Shown here piece by piece: positions 8,690 through 38,375 of a stretch of DNA of 39,770 bases. Origin of the DNA: Chloroflexota bacterium (lineage in GTDB: Bacteria > Chloroflexota > UBA11872 > VXOZ01); NCBI GenBank assembly GCA_028874195.1, contig JAPPLM010000077.1:1-39770 (forward strand), written 5' to 3'. Made by a program: the position numbers and the translations under genes. Numbering within the stretch: the stretch's first letter is position 1; each line of letters begins with the position of its first letter. The notes beneath the pieces were generated by a model. That model had not been told where the DNA came from. It did no database searches and saw only the letters and a program-made list of their open reading frames with translations.

Positions 8690-8722
8690 CCGTTCATACT
8701 TCGACAGGCTCAGTACGAACGG
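8690..8722 (+). repeat. 33-bp dispersed palindromic element, copy B
   Basis: Begins CCGTTCATACTTCGACAGGC and ends CAGTACGAACGG, nearly identical to copy A read on the opposite strand. It lies between the convergent proC and esterase genes. Confidence 0.85.
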
Positions 8723-23884: not shown

Positions 23885-23917
23885 CCGTTCGCACTGAGCT
23901 TGTCGAAGTGTGAACGG
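23885..23917 (-). repeat. 33-bp dispersed palindromic element, copy D
   Basis: Reverse-strand reading begins CCGTTCACACTTCGACAAGC and ends AGTGCGAACGG. A few substitutions from copies A and B, with the same outer CCGTTC/GAACGG pairing. Confidence 0.8.
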
Positions 23918-26349: not shown

Positions 26350-26492
26350 CGATTCCGTCATTCCCGTGAAAACTCGCCCCGTTCCGGGGCGCAGAATCCA
26401 TCTTCTCCTCTCAACTCCCGCGAGAAAGCCGACCCTTACCCCCGTATCGAGTACGGGGCAGGCTCTAGCCCTCTCCCAGAGAAAGAGAGGGG
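26350..26492. repeat. Composite palindromic repeat, copy 1 (galE 3' end)
   Basis: Three hairpins in a row: CGCCCCG-TTC-CGGGGCG (26375-26391), CCCCGTA-TCGAG-TACGGGG (26440-26458), and a CCTCTC/GAGAGG arm pair (about 26470-26490). The second and third, with GCAGGCTCTA between them, match an inverted copy inside galE at 26814-26880. The galE stop codon (26465-26467) falls within this repeat. Confidence 0.85.
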
Positions 26493-27655
26493 ACAGAGCC
26501 GTAGCCGTTTGGATGTCGTTGCTCCCAGTCCCACGCGCTGCTAATGATGGTCTCCAGGTCCGAGTATGCCGGTTTCCACCCCAACTCGCGACGGATCTTC
26601 TCCGCACTAGCGAGCGATGCCGCCGCATCGCCGGGGCGGCGGGGGCATTCCCGCGCCGGTATCGGACAGCCGGTAATGCGCCGCGCCATCTCGATGACTT
26701 CAAGGTTAGTCGCCCCTTCCTCGCTGCCGATGTTGTAGATAGTGACTCCACTCGCTCCGTCGTTCCCGCGAGATGAAACCCCTGCGTCACCCTGTTCGGC
26801 AGGAGACGTATCTCCTCTCCCTTGAGGGAGAGGGTTAGAGCCTGCCCCGTACGTGATACGGGGGTGAGGGTGAATCTCTGGAGGCCCGCCAGATTCCCCT
26901 GGGCTGGCAGCGTCCAGCGAGAGATTCCGCAGGCTGGCACCCATCTGCTCGACCGCCAGCAAATGCGCTTGCGCCAGATCGCGCACGTGAATGTAGTCCC
27001 GGCTGGCAGTGCCGTCGCGGGTCGCGTAGTCCGTGCCGTACAGATCCAGGTGCGGCCGCGCGCCTTGCGCCACTTGCAGGACTATGGGGATGAGGTGGCT
27101 TTCCGGTTTATGGTCTTCTCCATACTTGGCCGTAGCGCCCGCCGCATTAAAGAAGCGGAAGACGGTCGCAGTGGTACCATGCGCCTGCGCATACCACTGG
27201 ATGATGCTTTCCACCTGGCGTTTGCTTTCGCTGTACGGATTGAGCGGGTCAATCGGATGATCCTCTCCAATCGGCAGCGACCCCGGTGTGCCGTAGACAC
27301 CGGCGGTAGATGAAAATACGATGCGCGGCACATTTGCCGCGAGCATGGCATCCAGAACATTGAGCGTATTGGCGGCATTGTTGCGGAAGTACTTGCCGGG
27401 ATCGTGCATCGATTCGCCCATCTGGATGTAGGCCGCCATGTGCACGACGACGTCCGGCGCGGCAGCACGCATTGCCTCACGCACGCCGGCGGGGTCCGCC
27501 GTGTCTCCGCAGACAAACGTTGCCCGTGGGTCGACCGCGGCCCGGTGGCCTGTCGATAGGTTGTCGAAGACAACGACATTGTGACCGCTATCCAGCAGCA
27601 ACTCGGTCACGACACTGCCGATGTAACCGGCGCCCCCTGTTGTGAAGACGTTCAC
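26465..27655 (-). CDS. galE: UDP-glucose 4-epimerase with in-frame repeat insertion
   Basis: This 396-residue extended SDR interconverts UDP-glucose and UDP-galactose. TTGGAGYIGS binds NAD; SSTAGVYG (about 115-122) and the YSESK of PYSESKRQVE (Tyr141, Lys145) form the active site; RFFNAAGA and YGTDYATRDGTASRDYIHV follow as expected. Family members are about 330 residues. The excess comes mainly from residues about 240-303, encoded by a palindromic repeat (26747-26940), between LAVEQM and VTIYNIGS, where the chain normally passes straight from helix to strand. The last ten residues (after HPNGYG) come from a second repeat copy that supplies the stop. All catalytic residues are intact, so activity may survive if the insert loops out. 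Confidence 0.9.
   Translation of the reverse strand: MNVFTTGGAGYIGSVVTELLLDSGHNVVVFDNLSTGHRAAVDPRATFVCGDTADPAGVREAMRAAAPDVVVHMAAYIQMGESMHDPGKYFRNNAANTLNVLDAMLAANVPRIVFSSTAGVYGTPGSLPIGEDHPIDPLNPYSESKRQVESIIQWYAQAHGTTATVFRFFNAAGATAKYGEDHKPESHLIPIVLQVAQGARPHLDLYGTDYATRDGTASRDYIHVRDLAQAHLLAVEQMGASLRNLSLDAASPGESGGPPEIHPHPRITYGAGSNPLPQGRGDTSPAEQGDAGVSSRGNDGASGVTIYNIGSEEGATNLEVIEMARRITGCPIPARECPRRPGDAAASLASAEKIRRELGWKPAYSDLETIISSAWDWEQRHPNGYGSVPSLSLGEG
26747..26940 (-). repeat. Palindromic repeat inserted in frame within galE, copy 2
   Basis: About 190 bp within galE that encode about 64 residues absent from the family. It contains hairpins CCTCTCCC-TTGA-GGGAGAGG (26814-26833) and CCCCGTA-CGTGA-TACGGGG (26845-26863). 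Read on the reverse strand, the core matches copy 1 at 26440-26480: CCCCGTATC, GTACGGGGCAGGCTCTA and CCCTCTCCC are shared. The encoded peptide HPHPRITYGAGSNPLPQ is Pro/Gly-rich, as expected of repeat translation. Exact insertion edges are estimates. Confidence 0.85.
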
Positions 27656-38250: not shown

Positions 38251-38283
38251 CCGCACGTACTTCGACAGGCTCAGTACGAACGG
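38251..38283 (+). repeat. 33-bp dispersed palindromic element, copy E
   Basis: Begins CCGCACGTACTTCGACAGGC and ends CAGTACGAACGG. The right two-thirds is identical to copy B; the left arm has diverged. Confidence 0.8.
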
Positions 38284-38356
38284 CGGGCGGTCATGCAGCC
38301 GATTCGAGACCTCGCCGCAGACTGCAAAAGACAGAGCCGCTAGGTTTCCGTGTAGA

Positions 38357-38375
38357 GCGGGGGCTTGTCCCCCGC
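38357..38375. repeat. GC-rich hairpin repeat, copy 2
   Basis: GCGGGGG-CTTGT-CCCCCGC, same stem as 32-50 with the loop in the opposite strand sense, followed by GCTTCA in place of GCTACA. Confidence 0.7.

Follow-up and report, generated by a model that had tools for sequence, protein, structure and literature searches.

A permissive loop of GalE in a Chloroflexota genus is best described as having taken up small palindromic repeats in frame, in successive insertions nested in one another

The locus examined here raises the question of how the gene for a metabolic enzyme came to carry palindromic repeat DNA inside its reading frame while the frame stayed open. The window, that is, the whole stretch of 39,770 nucleotides that was analysed, comes from an uncultured Chloroflexota bacterium and corresponds to contig C33 in genome G000 (3.5 Mb, 81 contigs); the genomes compared with it are metagenome-assembled, where this is known. 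The gene galE, at 26465-27655 on the minus strand, starts with GTG and encodes a UDP-glucose 4-epimerase of 396 amino acids. The open reading frame matches the TIGR01179 galE profile (E=2.6e-106), and its best match among solved structures, as determined with Foldseek, is the Nostoc GalE 8wxk (TM 0.95 by target length). Solved GalE chains match the protein in two stretches with the insert between them, which for 8wxk are residues 3-236 and 305-381. Alignment with GalE of the genus and of outgroups, together with the predicted confidence (pLDDT), places the whole in-frame insert at 26750-26938 on the minus strand, about residues 240-302, between HLLA and YNIG. An initial annotation of this DNA had placed about 64 extra residues between the YIHV-helix region and VTIYNIGS. 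The open reading frame and the alignment agree with that position and with a frame that is open throughout, and the extra stretch is real, but the net gain relative to the outgroup protein L006 is slightly smaller, at 59 residues. The GalE alignment shows no variation at S116, Y141 and K145, consistent with the known catalytic residues of the family, and the protein is presumed to be active. A second copy at the level of GalE was not found in G000, where the next best match is 29% identical.

All five species of the genus that were compared have an insert at this one exact site, and all of the inserts are in frame. The net gains are 59 residues in G000, 51 in G004, 46 in G002, 34 in G003 and 26 in G001; G005 (69% complete) gave no GalE orthologue, and the genus comparison therefore covers G000-G004. 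GalE proteins of outgroups from the same class and from other phyla (mostly 323-336 amino acids) have no insert. Nor do all relatives carry an unrelated sequence of equal length at the site, as congeners differ in length and outgroups have none. Repeats are known to cause misassembly, and an artefact of assembly was the other reason for doubt that had been raised. The inserts come from five species with separate assemblies, have different contents at a common site and keep the frame, which excludes an assembly artefact; to an error of assembly or binning we accord next to no probability.

The insert had been interpreted as a single palindromic repeat, a Pro/Gly-rich double hairpin. The DNA is indeed palindromic and in frame, and both hairpins are present, but the structure is a composite of several nested layers, and the part that encodes HPHP-RITYGAGS-NPLPQGRG appears to be a later addition to an older repeat of the CGTC-1 REP type. 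This older layer is preserved best in G001, where galE carries GGATTCCCGCTTTCGCGGGAATGACGG (peptide DSRFRGNDGG), an exact CGTC-1 unit on the opposite strand. The G001 copy ends with GACG, the reverse complement of which is the CGTC head, and contains ATTCCCGC-GAAA-GCGGGAAT, an 8-bp stem starting with AT and a 4-nt loop; the ATGG that precedes ATTCCCGC reads as a CC(A)-like tail on the repeat's own strand. In the other species this layer is decayed or loop-extended. The window keeps the GACG and mainly the right half of the repeat, GTTTCATCTCGCGGGAACGACGG, at 26757-26779 on the minus strand (peptide RGNDG). The stem is broken, and alignment with G001 and G004 weakly indicates a probable left remnant at 26927-26944 on the same strand. 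The CGTC-1 layer of the window is too decayed to be recognised on its own, and its identity is read from G001 and the alignment.

Repeat B of the galE insert, ATTCACCCTCACCC-TRA-CCCTCTCCCTCAAGGGAGAGG, is present in G000 and G004 and absent from G001, G002 and G003. In the window, its 5' part, ATTCACCCTCACCC, lies at 26862-26875 and its 3' part, TAACCCTCTCCCTCAAGGGAGAGG, at 26814-26837 with a hairpin at 26814-26834, both on the minus strand. Between them lies module A, the 24-nt palindrome CCGTATCACGTACGGGGCAGGCTC at 26838-26861 on the minus strand, which encodes RITYGAGS. Module A is absent from the B copy of G004 at this site and is found inside the B of the insert in G000 only. The distribution of the layers and the percent identities point to an order in which the CGTC-1 REP (repeat C) came first, followed by B and then A, so that the founding insert would be the REP found across the genus, with B and A added later. 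The view that a repeat of this kind can spread into coding DNA and spare the gene therefore needs to be narrowed: the DNA is tolerated in frame, but B and A would have entered an insert that was already permissive and not a naive GalE.

A survey by Di Nocera et al. (2013, PMC3733652) defined CGTC-1 REPs by a CGTC head, an 8-bp stem beginning with AT, a 4-nt loop and a CC(A) tail, and placed both the Neisseria dRS3 and the R. conorii RPE-6 elements in this family. The survey found CGTC repeats in five phyla, Chloroflexota not among them, described in-gene arrays of 43-82 residues, and reported REPs in uvrA and other repair genes. The G001 galE copy resembles this family, in which the unpaired head may also be TGTC or CCTC, in head, stem, loop and CCA-like tail, and repeats of the C type are dispersed in many, mostly intergenic copies. 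The resemblance extends to pairs with facing heads (MDSRFRGNDG ... RHSRESGNPS), to in-frame copies in genes including uvrA, and to the lack of a linked transposase. The differences are the Chloroflexota host, the overlay by other repeats, and an array in UvrA of G003 that is roughly 320 residues long versus the 43-82 reported. The link between RPE-6 and the founding REP of galE is taken from the description in PMC3733652 only. By that description, the likeness to Rickettsia palindromic elements proposed in the initial annotation is right in kind. In the account of these elements given in PMC10969869 (which cites Ogata 2000, 2002), they are units of about 150 bp with a conserved peptide. As there, a palindrome lies in frame inside metabolic and other genes and is tolerated in the product, which in the case of galE is indicated by the alignment, dN/dS and the predicted structure. 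Unlike a unit of ~100-150 bp with a conserved peptide, the galE insert is a mosaic of units of 24-41 nt, and the peptide depends on the frame, which varies by gene; the comparison is one of descriptions.

The same repeats occur at the 3' end of galE. A second copy of B with A, in the opposite orientation, lies at 26432-26491 on the plus strand (A at 26442-26465) and contributes the final codons of the gene and its stop. The two B plus A copies of the window differ from each other in loop and arm. G000 and G002 have module A in the 3' B copy; G004 and G001 lack it. The identities suggest that G000 and G004 are sisters, in which case the distribution requires at minimum either two gains, or a single gain together with a precise loss. 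Downstream of galE, a CGTC REP at 26356-26400 on the plus strand has another palindrome (CGCCCCGTTCCGGGGCG) in its loop. Repeat content differs between species across the syntenic region; repeat D (CCGTTCGTGCTGAGCCTGTCGAAG type) has four copies in the window, at 870-893, 8699-8722, 23885-23908 and 38260-38283, and its presence varies among the related genomes.

Module A itself occurs twice in the window versus 0.00 expected from 100 dinucleotide shuffles. The exact 25-base pattern of the module was found 29 times in G000, and the reversed pattern used as a control was not found there. Among 62 distinct copies with flanks, the junction is CC^T, with C at -2 in 98%, C at -1 in 95% and T at +1 in 96%. 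When the flanks are joined they restore the empty host repeat in 46 of the 62, without duplicated bases and hence without the target-site duplication of a classical MITE. The host repeats are B (CCCTCACCC^TARCCCTCTCCC), C (TGGATTCCCGCC^TTCGCGGGAATGACGG), D (CCGTTCGCCC^TGAGCCTGTCGAAGGG) and E (GGTTTGCAACC^TGCGCC); in C the junction is located in the hairpin loop, and in B, D and E within the repeat. One unit with one junction in unrelated hosts suggests, as judged from these sequences, that A moves on its own. We tentatively propose, at a shade below an even chance, that the 24-nt module A is a mobile element in its own right and enters the palindromes of several unrelated repeat families precisely at CC^T without duplicating its target, its six open frames allowing it to enter coding repeats without breaking them. 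Cyanobacteria reportedly have comparable small dispersed repeats (SDR), which Elhai et al. are said to have described in 2008 as units of ~21-27 nt with a preferred target that are nested in other repeats. Module A would be like these in unit size, in its preferred target (the CC^T junction) and in nesting, and it is present or absent at the galE 3' end depending on the species; the phylum is a different one, and the likeness is by description.

The exact 25-base pattern was found in 13 of 400 Chloroflexota genomes and in 3 of 224 genera. Module A is plentiful in another genus of the class (g3, from another family: G029, G025, G007, G013, G028 and G015) and absent from the sister genus of g3, g5, a patchy distribution that suggests transfer or loss. 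Copies of A at L040, L041 and L048 hold another palindrome within their loop, which makes a third level of nesting. Two contigs from a viral collection carry A (L159 9261-9285 and L160 3556-3580), one of them in a B-like context; these could be a vehicle, or host DNA in the collection. A search for plasmid carriage gave no match, and neither did a search of a literature collection for the sequence of module A.

Some agent presumably moves C, B and A, and no transposase linked to any of the three was found. The genus does have REPs of the GTAG type with a RAYT: in G000, G001 and G002 a Y1 transposase gene lies between inverted GTAG REPs of type F (GTAGCGCGGGGGCTTGTCCCCCGC), forming a REPtron (L149 1367-2034 on contig C45 of G000; also L150 and L151). 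Repeat F also occurs in the window at 32-55 and 38352-38375. The GTAG head is absent from A, B and C, the galE insert contains no F, and on present evidence the Y1 enzyme cannot therefore be assigned to the insert. As its gene is flanked by F only, a RAYT as the mover of the insert was rejected for now. A and B may instead have arrived by recombination between repeat copies, through gene conversion or template switching at hairpins and not by transposition. This would fit the lack of a linked transposase, the coexistence of B copies with and without A in the genus, and the presence or absence of A between species in the 3' B copy. However, homologous exchange between copies of one host repeat does not explain one fixed junction of A in four unrelated host repeats, and the loops and arms of the two B plus A copies of the window differ. 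We regard recombination as possible but somewhat doubtful.

Selection on the gene was estimated from G000 and G004. The core of GalE has a dN/dS of 0.09 (95% interval 0.06-0.14) and is under purifying selection, whereas the insert, aligned without A, has a dN/dS of 0.78 (0.38-1.70) and is near neutral, with a wide interval that leaves room for weak constraint. AlphaFold predicts a confident GalE fold (mean pLDDT 85.9, 295 residues above pLDDT 90). The insert, between the helix at 224-249 and the strand at 304-309, is predicted to be disordered, with residues 256-258 and 260-300 at pLDDT < 50; it is modelled as the surface loop that the initial annotation had suggested looking for. The repeat-derived tail of the protein (389-396) is also predicted to be disordered. 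Retention of the insert in all five congeners and the lower end of its dN/dS interval would be compatible with a functional, lineage-specific extension of GalE, such as a binding or regulatory loop kept for its role. That explanation is unlikely given that the insert ranges from 26-59 residues with little common sequence besides RGNDG-like pieces, has no predicted structure, is made of pieces that match dispersed repeats elsewhere in the genome, and has identical peptides in unrelated proteins. Removal of the insert before the enzyme works, whether intron-like, by bypass or by protein cleavage, has no direct support; the insert RNA folds slightly better than shuffles (z -1.76), but an Rfam search gave no match, on which an intron or structured-RNA reading was rejected, the frame is open throughout, and length and sequence vary freely between species. 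We consider removal very improbable.

Successive insertion of REP, B and A is the explanation that we favor, and as a whole we consider it highly probable. In an ancestor of the genus, a CGTC-1 type REP would have landed in frame in galE, in the loop that leads from the helix following YIHV to the YNIGS strand. Two features may account for its being tolerated by the enzyme: the loop is a surface linker remote from the catalytic residues, and REP units are generally readable. The permissive loop would thereafter have kept gaining and losing repeat DNA: B would have entered before the split of G000 and G004, and A, which at 24 nt is frame-neutral, would then have nested in B in the lineage of the window. 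Selection would hold the frame and the enzyme core and not the sequence of the insert, which would drift as a disordered loop.

The distribution of the repeats was determined in a 440-kb sample of G000 (~80% coding) and a 400-kb sample of G001, with genes called by a simple codon model, so that the figures are estimates. In G000 there are 92 repeat clusters, 76 intergenic, 8 at gene ends and 8 well inside genes; in G001 3 of 53 clusters are inside genes. In the combined 840 kb, repeats of the C type are intergenic in 35 cases, at gene ends in 4 and inside genes in 8. Repeats C and D are inside genes in 10 of 75 cases versus 1 of 66 for E, F and H (Fisher p=0.01, with small counts and a post hoc grouping). 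Five of six frames are open in the 27-nt CGTC-1 unit and all six in the 24-nt module A, properties that help explain their survival in frame. In-frame copies of CGTC type are present in a 3-hydroxyacyl-CoA dehydrogenase/enoyl-CoA hydratase fusion (L106 9497-12034), where the insert is common to all five species, a HerA-like ATPase (L093 8173-10086) and a Type ISP restriction enzyme (L105 7993-11391). Further in-frame copies were found in an ABC transporter linker, a DUF2298 protein and, in G001, a methyltransferase. The most striking other case in the genus is uvrA, in which two linkers are expanded across the genus (L129, L130, L131, L133 and L134). The open frames are 1149 amino acids in G000, 1068 in G004, 1201 in G002 and 1098 in G001, compared with 962 and 979 in outgroups, which have short turns at the first linker site. 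The long array of G003 UvrA (L131) consists of RHSRESGNPS/MDSRFHGNDG repeats derived from CGTC REPs.

In-frame palindromic repeats are familiar chiefly from Rickettsia and from several other bacteria, and in-frame REPs as such have already been described. What is new is the setting in Chloroflexota, a phylum unlisted for CGTC REPs in PMC3733652, the visible layering and module A. In five related genomes one can follow an insert that founded the site, an overlay added later and a third, nested element, all in an enzyme whose core is constrained. With the galE series it can be tested whether loops derived from repeats remain neutral or gain a use. The uvrA arrays of the genus echo the bias toward repair genes reported elsewhere. 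Module A, a tiny palindrome that is possibly mobile and has a fixed junction, lends itself to testing; if it is indeed mobile, it would rank among the smallest mobile DNA units known.
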